Shown in pieces: positions 1 to 6,585 of a DNA stretch of 6,585 bases. The DNA comes from a bacterium (GTDB lineage Bacteria > JAHJDO01). Location of the stretch: assembly GCA_030611945.1 (NCBI GenBank), contig JAUWOV010000087.1, positions 1-6,585 of the forward strand, read 5' to 3'. The notes below the pieces were generated by a model, which was not told the origin of the DNA, did no database searches, and saw nothing but the letters and a program-made list of their open reading frames with translations. How positions within the stretch are numbered: position 1 is the stretch's first letter; every line of letters starts with the position of its first letter. The position numbers were made by a program, and so were the translations under genes.

Positions 1-37
1 GATGAAAAAGTAGAATTATCTTGACAATGTCAGATTA

Positions 38-65
38 ACCGCAGAGTTCACAGAGAGCGCAGAGG
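38..65 (+). repeat. CGCAGAG-type dispersed repeat, copy 1
   Basis: A 28-base unit beginning ACCGCAGAG and ending GCGCAGAGG, with an internal CACAGAGA. Purine-rich CGCAGAG/CACAGAG repeats of this style occur scattered in intergenic DNA of many bacteria and some archaea. That statement is from general knowledge; no family name is assigned here. Confidence 0.55.
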
Positions 66-158
66 ATATAGAGTAGAGATATGTCCTTTTATCTCCTTCA
101 CAACCTGAACCAATTTTATTACCCATTGAGGCACTGTCTTAAAAACTAGTGATTTATC

Positions 159-185
159 AACGCGGAGATCGCCGAGGGCGCAGAG
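159..185 (+). repeat. CGCAGAG-type dispersed repeat, copy 2 (degenerate)
   Basis: AACGCGGAG, then GCCGAGG, then GCGCAGAG: the same three-block layout as copy 1 and in the same orientation, but more diverged. It lies in the middle of the element bounded by the 12-bp inverted ends. Confidence 0.45.
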
Positions 186-223
186 TTTAAGAGTGTTCCA
201 ATCAACGCTTGGGCTTTCTAATG

Positions 224-251
224 CCTCTGCGAACTCAGCGTTCTCTGCGGT
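224..251 (-). repeat. CGCAGAG-type dispersed repeat, copy 3 (inverted)
   Basis: Read on the minus strand, this 28-base unit begins ACCGCAGAG and ends TCGCAGAGG, the same length and ends as copy 1 with six internal mismatches. It forms the inner right arm of the inverted element. Confidence 0.55.
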
Positions 252-318
252 AAATGAAATGTGACATTGTCAACTCTGTGTTCCGCAGAGGTCAATTAAT
301 TATTTTATCCAATGTTTT

Positions 319-481: not shown

Positions 482-646
482 ATGAATATAGCAACCTATG
501 ATGAAGTCGTGGAAGGGCCTGATGGCTGCATCTGCTACTGCACTTGCATCTGCACCTGCAGTCTTGATACTGCCTCGCAGGCAACTGTGGGGAAGCAAGG
601 CGCCGTAGCTGGAGGAGCAATCGGGGCCCTTATTACACGCGGCTAG
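482..646 (+). CDS. Cysteine-array RiPP precursor peptide (54 aa)
   Basis: This small gene most likely encodes the substrate of the radical SAM enzymes downstream. The 54-residue product has three parts. Residues 1-15 are a short, acidic leader-like segment starting MNIATYDEVVEGPDG. Residues 16-26 are CICYCTCICTC, six cysteines at strict i+2 spacing alternating with Ile, Tyr and Thr. Residues 27-54 are a tail with GAVAGGAIGALI at 40-51, a glycine zipper (G40, G44, G48) as in membrane-active peptides. It has the best ribosome binding site in the window and is followed by a hairpin and oligo-T tract. By hand count it is about 55% GC, against about one third in a sampled line of the next gene. 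Alternating cysteines would all face one side of a strand, suiting thioether cross-links or metal binding. The context of two SPASM proteins and an exporter favours a RiPP over a metallothionein. There is no GG leader-cleavage motif and I know no named family with this layout. Confidence 0.8.
   Translation: MNIATYDEVVEGPDGCICYCTCICTCSLDTASQATVGKQGAVAGGAIGALITRG
527..559 (+). repeat. Hexanucleotide-like repeat encoding the Cys-X array
   Basis: Five and a half units of a 6-base period (TGC plus one variable codon: ATC, TAC, ACT, ATC, ACC, then a final TGC) encode the cysteine array. All six cysteines use TGC. TGCATC occurs twice, as units 1 and 4. Such an in-frame tandem repeat could gain or lose Cys-X units by slippage without a frameshift. 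Confidence 0.6.
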
Positions 647-717
647 CTTAGAAACAATGTGGGGCCGGAGAAGTATGCTGAAATGAGAAAAAGTCTGCGA
701 AGGAGTTTACGATAGCT

Positions 718-766
718 CTTTGTTAATGTAACAAAGGCTACAATACCCTTTTTTTTTCTTTTTTTT
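718..766 (+). terminator. Hairpin plus oligo-T terminator/attenuator after the peptide gene
   Basis: CTTTGTTA (718-725) and TAACAAAG (729-736) form a perfect 8-bp stem around an ATG loop. Twelve bases later comes T9-C-T8 (749-766), the longest T-tract in the window. Archaeal RNA polymerase terminates at oligo-T, and the hairpin may assist or protect the 3' end of the short mRNA. Because the maturase genes follow on the same strand, partial termination would give more precursor than enzyme transcript, as in many RiPP operons. The gap between stem and T-run is longer than in a canonical bacterial intrinsic terminator. Confidence 0.65.
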
Positions 767-768
767 AG

Positions 769-781
769 CAAAATTTAAAAG
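769..781 (+). promoter_or_regulatory. Possible secondary promoter for the maturase genes
   Basis: CAAAATTTAAAAG right after the T-tract resembles a BRE plus TATA box. Initiation about 25 bases downstream would fall near 800-808, giving a very short leader before ATG 821. If real, the enzymes could be expressed independently of read-through from the peptide promoter. AT-rich background makes this a weak call. Confidence 0.25.
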
Positions 782-806
782 CCTGTGTATCGAATAGGAA
801 AATAAA

Positions 807-812
807 GGGTGA
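807..812 (+). promoter_or_regulatory. Ribosome binding site deciding the start of the first maturase
   Basis: GGGTGA lies eight bases before ATG 821 and matches the GGTGA core of archaeal ribosome binding sites. The alternative GTG at 809 lies inside this site and has only a weaker AGGA (796-799) upstream, so ATG 821 is preferred. The choice changes the protein by four residues. Confidence 0.5.
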
Positions 813-820
813 AAAAAATT

Positions 821-2314
821 ATGAAATTTTATAGCAAAAGCGGAATGGAGTACGTATATGATAATACTACAGGGCTAAGTTTTCCCTCAACTTCTCTGAT
901 GGAACGAGTTATACAAGAAGTTCAGGGGAATTTGAGTGAAGAAGAGACCGTTGAGAGATTAAAGAGCGATTTTAATGAAGAGGAAATCCTGTTCTGGTAC
1001 AATTTTGTAAACAAATGGAGCAAGTTTAAAGCGTTTTCTTCAACACAGGCTCAAATCTCCGTGGAAAAGCCAGATGCAGAAGACGTTAAAGAATGGATAT
1101 TGAGAGAAGGATTAAATCAGCTCACACTATGTGCTACCGAGGACTGTAATTTCAGATGTAAGTATTGCATCTATTCAGACAATTACGAATATTCTAGTGG
1201 ATATTCGCATAAATACATGGATTTTGAAACTGCAAAGAAAGCACTCGATCACTATTTCTCTCTTTTAGAAGAGGCAAAGAGATACAATCCGTGGAGAGAA
1301 CCAGCAGTAGGATTTTATGGCGGAGAGCCCCTGTTAAATTTTAAACTTGTCAAAAGATGTGTTGAGTATATTAAAAAGGAGTATAGTAACTATAAAATTT
1401 TGTACACAATAACCACAAATGCTTCTTTAATGAACAAAGAAAAAGCAGATTTTCTCATGCAGCACAATTTTGGGATTGCCGTTAGTTTAGACGGACCTGA
1501 AGAAGAGCATGATAGAAATAGAGTCTATGCAAATGGTAAGGGAACGTTTAAAGACATCATGAAAAAGGTTAGCTACGTCATGGAAAAGGGCTATGAAAAG
1601 ATTAGCTCGCTTGCAATTTTTGACTGGAAGAGTGATTTGTTCAACTTACAAGAGTTCTTTGATCGAGAAGATGTCCCTCGCCTGACTATCATATCTGTAG
1701 TAAATACCGACATGGGGTGCAACTACTACAAACAATTTTCGAAGGAAGATTTTCAGTGTCATTTTGAACAGATGAAAAAAGCTAAACAACACTACGTGGA
1801 ATATTTAATCGGGAATAATCTCAAGAAAAGAACATCCGTTTTTGACCTTTTGTTTGGTCTTAGCGCTGCAAGGAGCATTTTTCAGACCCCCTTTGTACTA
1901 GATCCTAGTCCTATCATGCCCTGTACTAGTTCATGTATTCCCGGTAGGAAGTTATATGTGGATGTGGATGGAAGATTTCATACATGTGAACGAATAAATA
2001 AAGCATTTCCTATCGGAGACGTAGAGAAAGGACTGGACTTTGAAAGAATTGCAGAGATGATGGGCAACTATTTTCAACATCTGGATAGCTGCTCAAATTG
2101 CGGAGTTAGAAGAATGTGCGACAAATGCTACTGTGCTTTTGTAACGGATAAAGGATTTTTGAGCTCTTCACAAGTATGCAAAGATGTTGAAGCCTCTATC
2201 GCAAACTCTCTTTCAGATGCGTTTACCATTGGCGAAATTAATCCTGAATTTCTTGAAAACTTCAGCAGCAACTATAATAGAACGCTAAAAAAATTGGAAT
2301 TTGTGGAGGACTAA
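821..2314 (+). CDS. Radical SAM/SPASM peptide maturase (497 aa)
   Basis: This cytoplasmic Fe-S enzyme probably installs cross-links in the Cys-array peptide. Numbering is from ATG 821. Residues 1-100 form an N-terminal region with no cysteines that may hold a precursor-recognition domain. The radical SAM cluster motif is CNFRCKYC (C109, C113, C116), followed by the SAM-binding GGEP (167-170), ITTNAS (197-202) and SLDGPEEEHDRNR (222-234); the last is typical of SPASM peptide maturases such as SCIFF, sactipeptide and anSME-type enzymes. The C-terminal SPASM domain shows C372-x11-G384-x4-C389, then C424-x2-C427-x5-C433, C436, C438 and C453. These are enough ligands for two auxiliary [4Fe-4S] clusters. 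C368 and the C436/C438 pair depart from the usual C-x3-C spacing. Length is normal for the class. It leads a tight three-gene run, and the next start lies one base after its stop. The class is clear from motifs; the exact linkage (Cys alpha or beta/gamma carbon thioether, or another C-C or C-S bond) cannot be read from sequence. Confidence 0.9.
   Translation: MKFYSKSGMEYVYDNTTGLSFPSTSLMERVIQEVQGNLSEEETVERLKSDFNEEEILFWYNFVNKWSKFKAFSSTQAQISVEKPDAEDVKEWILREGLNQLTLCATEDCNFRCKYCIYSDNYEYSSGYSHKYMDFETAKKALDHYFSLLEEAKRYNPWREPAVGFYGGEPLLNFKLVKRCVEYIKKEYSNYKILYTITTNASLMNKEKADFLMQHNFGIAVSLDGPEEEHDRNRVYANGKGTFKDIMKKVSYVMEKGYEKISSLAIFDWKSDLFNLQEFFDREDVPRLTIISVVNTDMGCNYYKQFSKEDFQCHFEQMKKAKQHYVEYLIGNNLKKRTSVFDLLFGLSAARSIFQTPFVLDPSPIMPCTSSCIPGRKLYVDVDGRFHTCERINKAFPIGDVEKGLDFERIAEMMGNYFQHLDSCSNCGVRRMCDKCYCAFVTDKGFLSSSQVCKDVEASIANSLSDAFTIGEINPEFLENFSSNYNRTLKKLEFVED
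2305..2310 (+). promoter_or_regulatory. Ribosome binding site deciding the start of the second maturase
   Basis: GGAGGA lies within the last codons of the first maturase and ends five bases before ATG 2316. It rules out the in-frame TTG at 2301, which would extend the protein by five residues. Being embedded in the upstream gene, it suggests translational coupling. Confidence 0.75.
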
Positions 2315-2315
2315 C

Positions 2316-3452
2316 ATGTATTTTAGGCTAAACCCAGAGTGCTATTTTATAAAAGGTAGTAGATGTGGAGCGATTTATGATCTAATAGAAGGTAATATAT
2401 ATGCTTTAGACTCCGAGGAAACAAAACTAGTAGAGTCGTGCGAGAAGAACGTTGAAAAAGAGAATAAAATTCTTGAAAATCTTAAAAAGTTGTGCTTGGG
2501 AAATTTTTATGATAAAAGAGCATACATAGAAAAATTACGATTGGGCTCTCCAATAGAAGAAAGTCAGCCCGGTCATCCACCACAGCTCAACAGAGCCTTT
2601 TTAGAGATAAACAATTCTTGCAACAGAAATTGCTGGTTCTGTGGCTATCATGGAATTAAAAGAAGTTGGGGCTGTATGGGCTGTAATAAATGGAATGAAG
2701 ATGGAGAAACTTTAACCACAGAAAGATGGAAAGAGATCATAGACGAGCTTAAGCGTTTGGATTGCAAGGATATTTTTATAACTGGTGGGGATTTAATTTT
2801 AGCATGGGACAAGACCATGGACATTTTAGACTATGCAGATGGGAAATTTAGAAAAATATATATAACACTTCATGAACAGAGTTTTTCTGAAAAGATAGTA
2901 AAATATCTGACAGACAAAGCTCAACCAATTGTTCAGACAGAACATCTAGATAGCATACAATCAGAAGATTCAATTTTTCTTTTGACCGTAAGACCAGAAG
3001 AGTTCAAGAATCGTAAGGACATAAACAGTAAAAAAGTGATGATAGATTTCGTAAGTGAAGATTTCAGTTCTTTACCCCCTGACATGCCTTTAACTTCTAA
3101 AAGAAAACTAGCTAAAGAGAGCATGTATCAATTCTTTCACAATATAAAATATCACCCGTGCATTGGCAATACATTAACAATTTCTCATACTGGAAAGGTA
3201 CTTCCATGCCCAATGATGAGAAATCACGTTCTTGGCAATATAAGAGATAGAGAGCTTTACACCTTATTTGAAAATGGAAAGGAGGAAATAGATAAATTCT
3301 GGAATTTGACTTTAGACAACATAGAAAAGTGTAGAGATTGTGAATTCAGATATGCTTGCAATAATTGTAGAGCTTTAGAAGAAAAATTGACAGGAAAACT
3401 AACTGGCAAAAGGTTGTGTAACTATGAACCCGAAGAAGGAAAATGGTTATAA
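2316..3452 (+). CDS. Second, divergent radical SAM/SPASM protein (378 aa)
   Basis: This is a second Fe-S enzyme of the same cluster, not a duplicate of the first. Numbering is from ATG 2316. Residues 1-95 hold a module starting MYFRLNPECYFIKGSRCG with IYDLIEGNIYAL. It recalls the N-terminal 'C-x-x-x-KG...YDL' region of SPASM maturases such as those of grasp-with-spasm systems; that is my recollection, not a search. CNRNCWFC (C102, C106, C109) is the radical SAM cluster. GCMGC (C120, C123) adds a CxxC. TGGD (156-159) stands where GGE is usual. The SPASM part shows C282-x10-G293-x4-C298, C339-x2-C342-x5-C348-x2-C351 and C368. At 378 residues it is short and lacks a recognisable SLDGP strand motif, so the barrel is probably partial. 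It could act on different residues, in a second step, or as a partner of the first enzyme. Its stop overlaps the next gene by 29 nt. Confidence 0.85.
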   Translation: MYFRLNPECYFIKGSRCGAIYDLIEGNIYALDSEETKLVESCEKNVEKENKILENLKKLCLGNFYDKRAYIEKLRLGSPIEESQPGHPPQLNRAFLEINNSCNRNCWFCGYHGIKRSWGCMGCNKWNEDGETLTTERWKEIIDELKRLDCKDIFITGGDLILAWDKTMDILDYADGKFRKIYITLHEQSFSEKIVKYLTDKAQPIVQTEHLDSIQSEDSIFLLTVRPEEFKNRKDINSKKVMIDFVSEDFSSLPPDMPLTSKRKLAKESMYQFFHNIKYHPCIGNTLTISHTGKVLPCPMMRNHVLGNIRDRELYTLFENGKEEIDKFWNLTLDNIEKCRDCEFRYACNNCRALEEKLTGKLTGKRLCNYEPEEGKWL

Positions 3453-5073
3453 AAAATTCTACAGAAAGTTTGTTAGACCTCATGTTTTTACCATATTATT
3501 ACTTTTAGGATTAAATTTTTTAGGTCTGCTTTTCTCTCTTGTCAGCCCATTGCTCACAAGGTCTCTGATAGACGATGTCTTTATTGGTAAAAGGGTTGAG
3601 CTCTTTGGTTATATTCTTTTAGGAATCGGTGGAATATATGTCATTTCTGCAATCTCTAATTACTTCTCTGGTTATATAAGCGGAAAATTAAATTTAACCC
3701 TATTCAAAAATGTCACTGCAGAGACCTTTAATGCTATCCAGTTTGCGTCTCTAAGAAAAACTCAGCAGATGAAGATTGGAGATATGCTTAGCCGGATCAT
3801 GAGCAATGTAAATTCTGCCATACAAATATTCTCTTCCATTTTTCCAGGGTTTGTTATGAGCATAATAAGCATTGTTGCACCCTTTATTATAATGCTCTAT
3901 CTTAACCTGCATCTTACGCTCATTGTGATGACACCGGTATTGCTTTTTGTTATCTCTTCAGCATTCTTTGGCAAAAGAATAAAGTACCAACAGAGAGCAT
4001 CTCTGGACAAAATGGCATCAGTGCATTCCTTCTTAAAAGAAGCTCTCTCTACAATTCCTCTTATAAAGGTCTTTGGACTTGAAAAATGGTCGCAAGACAA
4101 ATTTCACGGTCAGATGGATGACTATTATGACGCTTCAATAGATGTAACAAAGACCGCTTCTTTGAGTGTTTCTGCCGCCTCTCTTATTTATGGCGTGCCC
4201 ATGGTTCTTCTCTTTGCTTTTGGTGGTGTAATGGTGATTCAGGGTTCCTTAACCCTGGGCACACTTATGGCTTTTATGGGATATGTTGGTCTCTTCTTCT
4301 CGCCCATCTCAACATTATCTCACTTATGGACATCGTACAAAAGCTCTTCGGCGGCCTTTGATAGAGTAAATGAGGTGTTTGAGTTGGAGCAGGACGGTAA
4401 GGGTAATGAAGAGCTGATTGTGAAAAAAGGTGTAGTAGAGTTCAAAGAGGTGTGGTTTTCCTATGATAAAAGACAGATACTTAACGGATTCAATGCCACC
4501 TTTAAGAAAGGTTTAAACTATATAATAGGAGATAATGGCAGTGGAAAGACGACAATTCTAAAATTGTTGTGCTCTCTTTACCCGTTAGAAAAAGGGCACA
4601 TTACTATAGATGGACAGGAGCTCTCAAAGGTAAGAAAAGAGGATTTGAGGAAAAGCATCTCAATAGTCTTCTCAGAGCCCTATCTGTTTGATAGTTCCAT
4701 TTATGAAAACATTCACATGGGTAAGATCTCAGCATCTGAAGAAGAGGTTATCAATGCTGCAAAGCTTGCTCGTGTGCATGAGTTCATAATGAGTTTACCC
4801 CAGGGGTATGAAACGGAGGTTGGGGAAGCAGGATTAAAACTATCGAGCGGAGAAAAGCAGAAGATTGCATTATCAAGATCAATTTTGAAGAGTTCCCCAA
4901 TAATACTTTTGGATGAAGTGACAAAGTCCATAGATGCAGAATCAAGAAGGTCGATCAATGAAAGTATTGAGCACTTAAAGAATGAAAAAACGATAATAAT
5001 TGTTACCCATGACATGAGTGAAATAAATGATGAAAGCAATATAATCTGTCTTGGGCAAAAAATGGTACAATAA
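3424..5073 (+). CDS. ABC exporter, fused TM and ATPase half-transporter (549 aa)
   Basis: This is a type I (MsbA/lipid-A and peptide exporter-like) half-transporter, expected to work as a homodimer in the cytoplasmic membrane and export the modified peptide. Six membrane segments fall around residues 22-45, 60-83, 140-160, 163-183, 250-274 and 278-300. The ATPase has an A-loop Tyr (Y347), Walker A GDNGSGKTT (369-377), signature LSSGEKQ (473-479), Walker B IILLDE (493-498, with catalytic E498) and H-loop H529. The Q-loop is odd: IVFSEPYLF places Ser417 where Gln is usual. There is no N-terminal C39 peptidase domain, so leader removal needs another protease. ATG 3424 is the only plausible start, since the frame is closed by TAA at 3400. 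It overlaps the second maturase by 29 nt, which points to a single coupled operon. Substrate assignment rests on context. Confidence 0.88.
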   Translation: MNPKKENGYKKFYRKFVRPHVFTILLLLGLNFLGLLFSLVSPLLTRSLIDDVFIGKRVELFGYILLGIGGIYVISAISNYFSGYISGKLNLTLFKNVTAETFNAIQFASLRKTQQMKIGDMLSRIMSNVNSAIQIFSSIFPGFVMSIISIVAPFIIMLYLNLHLTLIVMTPVLLFVISSAFFGKRIKYQQRASLDKMASVHSFLKEALSTIPLIKVFGLEKWSQDKFHGQMDDYYDASIDVTKTASLSVSAASLIYGVPMVLLFAFGGVMVIQGSLTLGTLMAFMGYVGLFFSPISTLSHLWTSYKSSSAAFDRVNEVFELEQDGKGNEELIVKKGVVEFKEVWFSYDKRQILNGFNATFKKGLNYIIGDNGSGKTTILKLLCSLYPLEKGHITIDGQELSKVRKEDLRKSISIVFSEPYLFDSSIYENIHMGKISASEEEVINAAKLARVHEFIMSLPQGYETEVGEAGLKLSSGEKQKIALSRSILKSSPIILLDEVTKSIDAESRRSINESIEHLKNEKTIIIVTHDMSEINDESNIICLGQKMVQ

Positions 5074-5078
5074 AAAAA
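5072..5078 (-). terminator. Oligo-T tract ending the minus-strand operon
   Basis: A7 on the plus strand reads as T7 on the minus strand, 16-22 bases beyond the TAG stop of the permease gene and just reaching the stop codon of the exporter gene. An oligo-T tract this close to a stop is a plausible archaeal terminator. No strong hairpin is seen in the 20-base gap between the two convergent genes. On the plus strand only T5 (5120-5124), inside the opposing gene, could serve the exporter operon. Confidence 0.4.
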
Positions 5079-5093
5079 GGTATCATAGCGGAA

Positions 5094-6530
5094 CTATTTA
5101 TACAACCTCTTATATCTCCTTTTTCTAAGCAATAAAGGCATAGCGAGAACAAGCAAGGTTGGGATAAATGCCGCAACGGAATAAAGTTTGAAATTGTCAG
5201 TTAGAAAGTACCATACGGTTAACTCGATTATTGGTTTTGAACTCAAACTCCAGTTATCCGGTACCAAGAGCTCAGCCTTATATCCTCCTGCTATATTGAG
5301 TTTCGGCGCAACGATCTTTATTTTAACCGGAAATTCAATCCAGACGTAGTTGCAATCGGTAAATCCTGCAGTTTTTGGTTTACAGATGTATGATTGTTCA
5401 GCCGCACCGTCAAATCTTAATCTATCATCCGGCGATTTAATGGTTATTTCTACTTCTTCTGTATCACTTCTATTAGATAAATCTTCTCGAGTCACCAGAT
5501 TTACAAGAAACACACCGTTTATTGTACCATCTTCAGCCACTCGTGCAGAATATATTTTACCGTCCCTACCTTTTCGTCTGTGCTCTAATATGTCACCTTT
5601 TTCTTCGGCGCTTAATCTAGACGCAGTACGAGAGTCAATAAATACTCCTGCATCAAAATCACCAGAAGGTTCCCATTCCACATCCACAGCCACTACATTA
5701 TAGTTTGTATCAATTGCGGTTGCTAAAACAGGAGCTGCTATCGAGAGAGCAACGAGCATAACCGCTATCGCTTTCTTTTTCTCTTTTAGATGTGCAAATA
5801 CTAGGAAGCCCACTAATGGAAATAAGAGAATAGACACGATAGGTACAACTAACGAAATACCCCTATCAACACAGCAAAAGGCAATAAACGGAGGAAATGC
5901 CATATAGTCAGGAAAGCCCATATAGTCCGAGATTGAAACTATTGGAGAGAGTCTCATAAACGCAGAGATAACAACTTTTCCTCTGGACTCTGGAAATGCA
6001 TAGAAAAGACTTGCTAAGATAGACCCAAAAGCAAAGATAAGCGAAATAGCAAGAGATACCGTTTGTCTTGAACCACAGACAGAAGCAATCATTGTCCCTA
6101 AACCCGATATAACCAGAATAATCAAGATAGATGCGATGAAGTATTTAAGAAATATGCCTGCAAGTGGCATGCCAACAAATGCAAAGTAGATCGCCATAAA
6201 TGGAAGGGTAATTGCAAGATAAAACAAACCCAGGATTACAGATAAAAGATACCGTGAAAAGAAGTATTCTCTATCTGAGACAGGATAGGTAAGGGTGATG
6301 TCTGTAAACCTTGAATTTTTCTCCGCAGGTATTAAAGTTGCAGGCACAATTATCAAAAATACGGGGGCAAGAAGGTAAACAAAATATAATGTGAGCTCTG
6401 TACCTATTGCTCCGAAAAGAAAAACGATTCCAAATACACCTAGTAGAGGAATTATCAAAAGGTATGTCCATTTTGTACCCAGATAGAGCTTCAAACTCTT
6501 TTTCAATAATCGGCTAAAATTGCCCATCAT
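5094..6530 (-). CDS. ABC-2 type transporter permease with large extracytoplasmic domain (478 aa)
   Basis: This is a membrane permease lacking its own ATPase domain. Numbering is from ATG 6530. Hydrophobic segments fall near 22-42, 47-68, 93-117, 127-149, 158-179, 224-246 and 253-272. A last helix at about 450-468 ends in the basic tail RKRRYKRLYK. The loop around 69-95 (AEKNSRFTDITLTYPVSDRE) is typical of ABC-2 permeases. Residues about 273-449 form a soluble, beta-rich-looking domain, probably outside the membrane, with two cysteines (C383, C393) that could form a disulfide. The in-frame GTG at 6536 and ATG at 6527 are alternative starts; GGAG at 6536-6539 best serves ATG 6530 or 6527. The start lies two bases after the stop of the preceding minus-strand gene. 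The gene converges on the exporter with a 20-base gap, so it is a separate transcript. It could give self-protection, export a second substrate, or be unrelated; the substrate is unknown. Confidence 0.75.
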   Translation of the reverse strand: MMGNFSRLLKKSLKLYLGTKWTYLLIIPLLGVFGIVFLFGAIGTELTLYFVYLLAPVFLIIVPATLIPAEKNSRFTDITLTYPVSDREYFFSRYLLSVILGLFYLAITLPFMAIYFAFVGMPLAGIFLKYFIASILIILVISGLGTMIASVCGSRQTVSLAISLIFAFGSILASLFYAFPESRGKVVISAFMRLSPIVSISDYMGFPDYMAFPPFIAFCCVDRGISLVVPIVSILLFPLVGFLVFAHLKEKKKAIAVMLVALSIAAPVLATAIDTNYNVVAVDVEWEPSGDFDAGVFIDSRTASRLSAEEKGDILEHRRKGRDGKIYSARVAEDGTINGVFLVNLVTREDLSNRSDTEEVEITIKSPDDRLRFDGAAEQSYICKPKTAGFTDCNYVWIEFPVKIKIVAPKLNIAGGYKAELLVPDNWSLSSKPIIELTVWYFLTDNFKLYSVAAFIPTLLVLAMPLLLRKRRYKRLYK

Positions 6531-6532
6531 TA

Positions 6533-6585
6533 TCACTCCACCATCTCTCCTTTAAGAAGCTTTGTTACATTCTCCTCAAGCTCAT
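6533..6585 (-). CDS. 3' end of a gene, probably the ATPase partner of the ABC-2 permease (partial)
   Basis: The minus strand carries an open frame from the window edge ending ...ELEENVTKLLKGEMVE and a TGA at 6535-6533. Sixteen complete codons are visible. The charged helical C-terminus and the two-base gap to the permease start fit a cytoplasmic ABC ATPase gene, the usual upstream partner of an ABC-2 permease. No ATPase motif lies within the window, so the identity is inferred from position only. Confidence 0.45.
   Translation of the reverse strand, partial: ELEENVTKLLKGEMVE

Follow-up and report, generated by a model that had tools for sequence, protein, structure and literature searches.

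The window analysed here, the whole 6,585-nt contig JAUWOV010000087.1 from the bacterial metagenome-assembled genome (MAG) G000, contains on one strand the gene for a 54-residue peptide with the motif CICYCTCICTC, two genes for radical S-adenosylmethionine (SAM) proteins with SPASM domains, designated rSAM1 and rSAM2, and a gene for an ATP-binding cassette (ABC) exporter (Table 1). Open reading frames (ORFs), motifs and Pfam/NCBIfam matches (Radical_SAM in rSAM1 and rSAM2, SPASM in rSAM2, and ABC_membrane/ABC_tran in the exporter) confirmed this gene content, which had been described from the letters alone in an earlier annotation (the sequence-only reading), and the cluster is a genuine locus for a ribosomally synthesized and post-translationally modified peptide (RiPP). 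The same annotation called the genes tightly packed, which holds for rSAM1, rSAM2 and the exporter, whose start overlaps the end of rSAM2 by 29 nt, but not for the peptide gene, because a gap of 174 nt, foldable into a hairpin, parts it from rSAM1.

Table 1. Coordinates of the features in the window and basis of their annotation.
Feature	Position	Strand	Description and basis
Precursor peptide gene	482-646	+	54 aa; ORF translation; same-position peptides in relatives
Intergenic hairpin region, then T-rich tract (CTTTGTTA...TAACAAAG)	647-820	+	Possible attenuator; folding compared with shuffles
rSAM1	821-2314	+	497 aa, CcpM/RumMC-like radical SAM/SPASM maturase; Pfam/NCBIfam, motifs, tree, structure model
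rSAM2	2316-3452	+	378 aa, second radical SAM/SPASM protein, distantly grasp-with-spasm-like; Pfam/NCBIfam, motifs
ABC exporter	3424-5073	+	549 aa, fused membrane and ATPase domains; Pfam/NCBIfam, motifs
ABC-2 type permease	5094-6536	-	Convergent to the cluster; domain search; kept beside the cluster in genome G811
Dispersed repeat	15-273	.	16-nt terminal inverted repeats (21-36 / 258-273); matches in G811; outside the RiPP system

The peptide gene encodes MNIATYDEVVEGPDGCICYCTCICTCSLDTASQATVGKQGAVAGGAIGALITRG, and AAGGAGGGG lies immediately 5′ of its ATG. The product comprises a 15-residue acidic leader (net charge -4), a C-x-C ladder of six cysteines (positions 16, 18, 20, 22, 24 and 26; each gap 2) and a 28-residue Cys-free tail rich in Gly, Ala and Thr, with one Asp and no Glu. 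The cysteines occupy the first half of the core, on its N-terminal side. The corresponding DNA pattern, TGY(NNNTGY)x5, has a single occurrence in the window and was never seen among 200 shuffles, and a tblastn search of plasmids with the peptide found nothing.

Alignment with its relatives places the start of rSAM1 at the ATG in position 821, and not at the program-called GTG in position 809. The protein has the radical SAM motif CNFRCKYC (CX3CX2C) and a seven-Cys SPASM domain (C-x11-G-x4-C-x34-C-x2-C-x5-C-x2-C-x16-C) with the pattern of TrnC (PMC12093266), so that the locus holds a maturase with both signatures, and a second radical SAM gene adjoins it, as in clusters of the huazacin/thuricin Z type. 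The best NCBIfam models are CcpM (250 bits), RumMC (204 bits) and GG_samocin (181 bits), all below their cut-offs. A maximum-likelihood tree built from 41 rSAM1 proteins unites the clusters with two radical SAM genes in one 14-row clade (support 99/95), outside of which fall the CcpM clusters with a single such gene; this clade includes the clusters with HuaA-type precursors, although the exact sister of the window enzyme within it is weakly supported. An inner clade of eight rows (100/98) groups the window rSAM1 with Methanothrix enzymes and that of locus L025. The structure model (mean predicted local distance difference test, pLDDT, 81) has as its best solved match the thioether-forming 5why/5wgg (E 3e-16), also the closest by sequence, and its N-terminus, predicted as strand-strand-strand-helix, is consistent with a leader-binding RiPP recognition element (RRE) domain. 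We conclude that rSAM1 is a probable thioether synthase. A scan of viral contigs with the protein found no relative.

The second enzyme, rSAM2, contains the motif CNRNCWFC, a SPASM domain also with seven cysteines (C-x10-G-x4-C-x40-C-x2-C-x5-C-x2-C-x16-C) and an extra CMGC motif that is retained in close relatives. Its structure model is poor (mean pLDDT 57) and shows at most a SPASM-type resemblance. The best NCBIfam model, SPASM_w_grasp (TIGR04193), scored 96 of the 175 bits required and the window has no ATP-grasp gene, and a grasp-with-spasm system was thus rejected. Equivalence with TrnD is weakened by the full SPASM domain, TrnD having only three of the cysteines; rSAM2 is a candidate partner maturase or leader-binding subunit. 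Phage records gave no match to rSAM2, and a six-row alignment of the protein offered no stretch conserved enough to serve as a probe for viral contigs.

The closest relatives of the cluster are found in Methanothrix genomes, with identities of 46-48% for rSAM1, 54-62% for rSAM2 and, where present, 58-65% for the ABC protein (48, 62 and 65%, respectively, in the Methanothrix MAG locus L024). They carry beside rSAM1 a peptide of 42-47 residues with a leader, a Cys cluster and a tail of around 20 residues. Genomes G594 and G584, of the same class, contain two clusters each, and G600 one; the paralogous clusters L144 and L145 lie some 20 kb apart on a single 3,008,626-bp archaeal chromosome, that of G594, and encode different peptides. 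A Cys-array peptide adjoins rSAM1 in all seven close relatives with an intact upstream region (six on the same strand, with L148 divergent), and a scripted search found a Shine-Dalgarno-like sequence before all of them except that of L144. The arrays are ...PDACWCDWCNC... (L024), ...PEACYCNWCSC... (L146), ...AACDCRCYIRC... (L144), ...APCCLSCGC... (L145), ...MACCFTAC... (L147), ...AGCCNCTKHC... (L025) and ...VSCTSACWSYC... (L148). What is constant is the plan, with a leader of 15-19 residues, usually acidic, followed by cysteines and a tail, and not the sequence, in which the clustered cysteines number 3 to 6 and their spacing ranges from 1 to 4. The sequence-only reading had proposed to look for homologous peptides beside homologous enzymes; the architecture is indeed kept in 7/7, but the peptide sequence is not, save in the orthologous pair L024/L146. 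Since the codons of this pair, with 17 identical, show 18 synonymous against 10 non-synonymous differences, these peptides appear to be coding under constraint.

Bacterial counterparts were also identified. A plasmid search found both enzymes adjacent on pRUMAL03 of Ruminococcus albus (35% identity for rSAM1, and 27% over 97% for rSAM2), preceded by an annotated huazacin-family peptide in duplicate, which passes model NF037972 (50 bits; cut-off 35), as does the peptide from a cluster with two radical SAM genes in Aeribacillus composti (41 bits). The order peptide-rSAM1-rSAM2-ABC occurs in these two and also in L024, L145, L146 and L147. A genome scan located other such clusters in candidate division TA06 (two), Eubacterium ruminantium and one Coriobacteriales genome; the two from TA06 (L027 and L141) are in one genome and have different precursors, with 9 and 6 cysteines. 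In genome G547, an rSAM2-like protein (L149:4965-6245) has no detected rSAM1 homologue nearby.

Some of the relatives bear signs of mobility. The L024 cluster (L024:3900-10330) is lower in GC content (0.39) than its flank (0.59) and has, by eye, seemingly transposase-like and group II intron-like remnants upstream, and this contrast, together with the apparent remnants, suggests a recent gain. In L025 (L025:2488-3643), on a contig doubtfully labelled Nanosynbacter, rSAM2 stops after ca. 135 residues beside a gene resembling IstB-type insertion sequence ATPases, an adjacency that suggests a cluster broken by insertion.

The six-Cys C-x-C ladder is rare, although not unique. A six-frame scan of 1.35 Mb of collected loci, in agreement with the DNA pattern, found three such runs: those of the window, of L030, from an Oscillospiraceae MAG, where the maturase of the cluster scores above the cut-off for CcpM, and of L067, from Planctomycetota, situated 27 nt from an rSAM1 relative. 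The last belongs to a single precursor (L067:2746-2991) with two ladders, CACGCPCSCIC and CACGCLC. Runs of four cysteines adjoin relatives of rSAM1 in L017, L031 and L063. Ladders are thus found repeatedly within the enzyme superfamily, on branches other than that of the window, and the idea of a unique ladder was dropped.

Gene content and the clade of rSAM1 support a cluster of the thioether RiPP type, as the sequence-only reading had put forward. That reading matched the product to no named family, which the data do not support: rSAM1 groups with clusters whose precursors pass the huazacin model NF037972, and clusters of the CcpM type contain C-x-C ladders as well. It is probable that the cluster represents an archaeal branch, with two radical SAM enzymes, of the known bacterial sactipeptides of the huazacin/thuricin Z kind, chemistry and mechanism included. 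With huazacin/thuricin Z (HuaA/ThzA, ThzC and ThzD) it shares a pair of dissimilar radical SAM enzymes, export by an ABC protein, a short precursor whose core carries its cysteines on the N-terminal side and ends in a tail free of Cys, and the clade of rSAM1, which holds enzymes beside HuaA-family precursors. It differs in being archaeal, with a single precursor gene, no HuaA model match, and six cysteines at every second residue instead of four at every fourth. The best reading by analogy is then a nested hairpin-type sactipeptide, with cysteines linked to alpha carbons of the tail. Links to the neighbouring Ile, Tyr and Thr of the ladder, as first suggested, are unlikely because the acceptors in characterised nested sactipeptides lie in the tail (PMC8172795, PMC12093266).

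Other known systems resemble the cluster in part. Thuricin CD has paired enzymes, and rSAM1 shows the TrnC-type SPASM pattern, but TrnD contrasts with rSAM2 in its SPASM domain and thuricin CD consists of two peptides, the window having one. Ruminococcin C1 contains a C-x-C donor pair and RumMC is among the models matched by rSAM1, at a score far below its cut-off (720 bits), whereas ruminococcin C forms two hairpins with two bonds each. For the CLI_3235-family precursors (TIGR04065), SacP23 among them, and their maturase CcpM (TIGR04068), the likeness lies in CcpM being the best model for rSAM1 and in the C-x-C ladders of some members (six Cys in L030, four in L031); however, rSAM1 reaches half of the 500 bits needed for TIGR04068, the precursor of the window lacks a leader of the KKLGKK type and does not match TIGR04065, and these clusters form a separate branch, without an rSAM2 of the window type. 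The resemblance of rSAM2 to the SPASM protein of grasp-with-spasm systems stays below the cut-off, as indicated above.

Between the peptide gene and rSAM1, a stem-loop was predicted in 8/8 loci folded (z -1.9 to -4.4), strong in most and weak in the window (z -1.9). A strict terminator scan found none; the hairpin and the T-rich tract are a possible attenuator, yielding more peptide than enzyme.

Several observations weigh against the huazacin/thuricin Z assignment. The window peptide has no match to NF037972 up to E 10, nor to any other RiPP family model; the scores of rSAM1 against CcpM and RumMC are well short of those required; and the C-x-C spacing suits a strand better than does the i+4 spacing of thuricin Z. 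The SPASM domain of rSAM2 is full, that of TrnD shortened (PMC12093266), and the division of labour may differ. The peptide of the orthologous cluster in G811 is unseen, because its contig ends inside rSAM1, and the hairpin of the window is not clearly above shuffles, 10/200 of which fold equally well.

The same enzymes could instead join the cysteines to beta or gamma carbons, giving a ranthipeptide. The closest solved structure to rSAM1 by fold and sequence is that of CteB (5wgg/5why), termed a ranthipeptide enzyme (PMC12093266), and the PapB ranthipeptide model matches it below the cut-off (144 of 340 bits). We regard this product as unlikely: those phylogenetic neighbours whose precursor is recognised belong to the huazacin type, and the links in thuricin Z/huazacin are at alpha carbons (PMC8172795), while the single Asp and lack of Glu in the tail make a poor supply of C-x3-D-type acceptors. 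Alternatively, only rSAM1 would form thioethers, with rSAM2 carrying out epimerisation, a carbon-carbon link or the like, or just binding the leader. This fits the distance between both enzymes, the grasp-with-spasm resemblance and CMGC motif of rSAM2, and the finding that of TrnC and TrnD only the radical chemistry of the former is essential (PMC12093266). A merely structural rSAM2 is nevertheless unlikely because CX3CX2C and the seven SPASM cysteines are kept in every relative aligned, and no positive evidence favours a different reaction, its model being too poor to judge; such a division of roles is a minority possibility, though one to be taken seriously. Six alternating cysteines could also bind soft metals, in a metal-binding or redox peptide on which the enzymes act otherwise or not at all. 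This is very improbable, as the ligand pattern is not kept among the relatives, where the differences in spacing and number of cysteines are those expected if the product varies, not if a site is conserved, and two radical SAM genes accompany the Cys peptide throughout the close relatives.

A further question is the genome to which the contig belongs. The bin G000 is bacterial, its 16S rRNA matching the bacterial model over its full length, but rSAM1, rSAM2 and the ABC-2 gene are all absent from its four congeners. An orthologous contig exists in G811, a genome from Halobacteriota, the phylum of Methanothrix genome G385, although outside the 237 searched members of the class of G385; DNA identity is 93.3% over window positions 1565-5078 and 91.9% over 5066-6585. 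This contig also holds nifH, nifD-like, nifK-like, nifV and ammonium transporter genes. The flanking repeat (positions 15-255), part of an element that resembles a miniature mobile element, matches 44 sites in G811, no site but its own in G000 and none in the four congeners. Most likely, then, the contig is archaeal and was mis-binned, and a cluster native to the bacterial MAG was discarded on the DNA identity and repeat distribution. Mis-binning rests on these two, because tetranucleotide composition slightly favours G000 (0.950, within a leave-one-out range of 0.911-0.981, against 0.922 to a small G811 sample), a point on the opposite side. The contig could instead be truly bacterial, with the cluster acquired horizontally from an archaeon; its composition fits the bin and such clusters move, as the GC contrast in L024 suggests. 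Against this, the repeat is genome-wide in G811, the neighbouring ABC-2 gene is 92% DNA-identical to that of G811, and the window contig has merely 6.6 kb, and we consider transfer quite improbable.

The exporter has the motifs GDNGSGKT (Walker A), LSSGE and IILLDE, and no leader peptidase domain is evident in it because its N-terminus leads directly into the membrane region. Several close relatives have a large protease-like gene 3′ of the exporter, which the window lacks; in a cluster of the Methanothrix class (L146:5026-8793) a subtilase of ca. 1,255 residues (S8, Pfam) follows directly and is a candidate leader protease. In G811 an ABC ATPase gene precedes the ABC-2 permease gene; the permease may have a role in immunity or efflux, or be merely a neighbour.

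From these data a mechanism can be proposed. One enzyme, or both, would hold the acidic leader in an N-terminal leader-binding domain, and rSAM1 would generate SAM-dependent alpha-carbon radicals on tail residues, probably aided by rSAM2 much as TrnC is by TrnD in thuricin CD, where the two act in a complex and TrnC does the chemistry while TrnD mainly holds the leader (PMC12093266). Bonding between these radicals and the six cysteines would produce a nested hairpin that carries as many as six thioethers and is lighter by up to 12 Da. In thuricin CD bond formation begins at the inner cysteine and moves outward (PMC12093266), and in thuricin Z Cys16, 12, 8 and 4 are joined to Asp26, Thr30, Tyr34 and His38 (PMC8172795); by analogy, the cysteines of the window peptide would be joined to tail residues one step at a time, beginning with Cys26 and proceeding outward to Cys16. 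A precedent for C-x-C donors is ruminococcin C1, with bonds Cys3-Asn16 and Cys5-Ala12 (PMC8172795). The ABC protein would export the modified peptide, the leader being cut by a protease encoded outside the window, and the hairpin 3′ of the peptide gene may hold the peptide-to-enzyme ratio high. Judging from characterised sactipeptides, the most likely function of the product is antagonism of other microbes.

The kind of cluster is already known; what merits attention is the archaeal setting, the diversification within genomes and the six-Cys ladder. Tentatively, and with less than even confidence, we propose that archaea have a family of hairpin sactipeptides of their own, which has diversified inside individual Methanothrix genomes and whose window member closes six nested thioethers from an alternating C-x-C strand. 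If so, its scaffold would be strand-like and denser in bridges than those of the characterised sactipeptides from the literature examined, none of which exceeds four bonds, and the product would rank among the earliest radical SAM thioether peptides of archaeal origin. Archaeal RiPP clusters have been predicted in numbers with few products known, a 2025 survey giving only lanthipeptides as characterised and listing radical SAM-modified RiPPs among those still to explore (PMC12144867); for archaeal sactipeptides, our literature search, which missed most subscription papers, found predictions and no characterised product. The window and the Methanothrix clusters make up a compact testable set of three to four genes, with several natural variants of 3 to 6 cysteines and with paired paralogous clusters from one genome. 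This set could show how paired radical SAM enzymes fix the register of the rings, and whether methanogens that live on acetate, and their relatives, use peptides to antagonise others.

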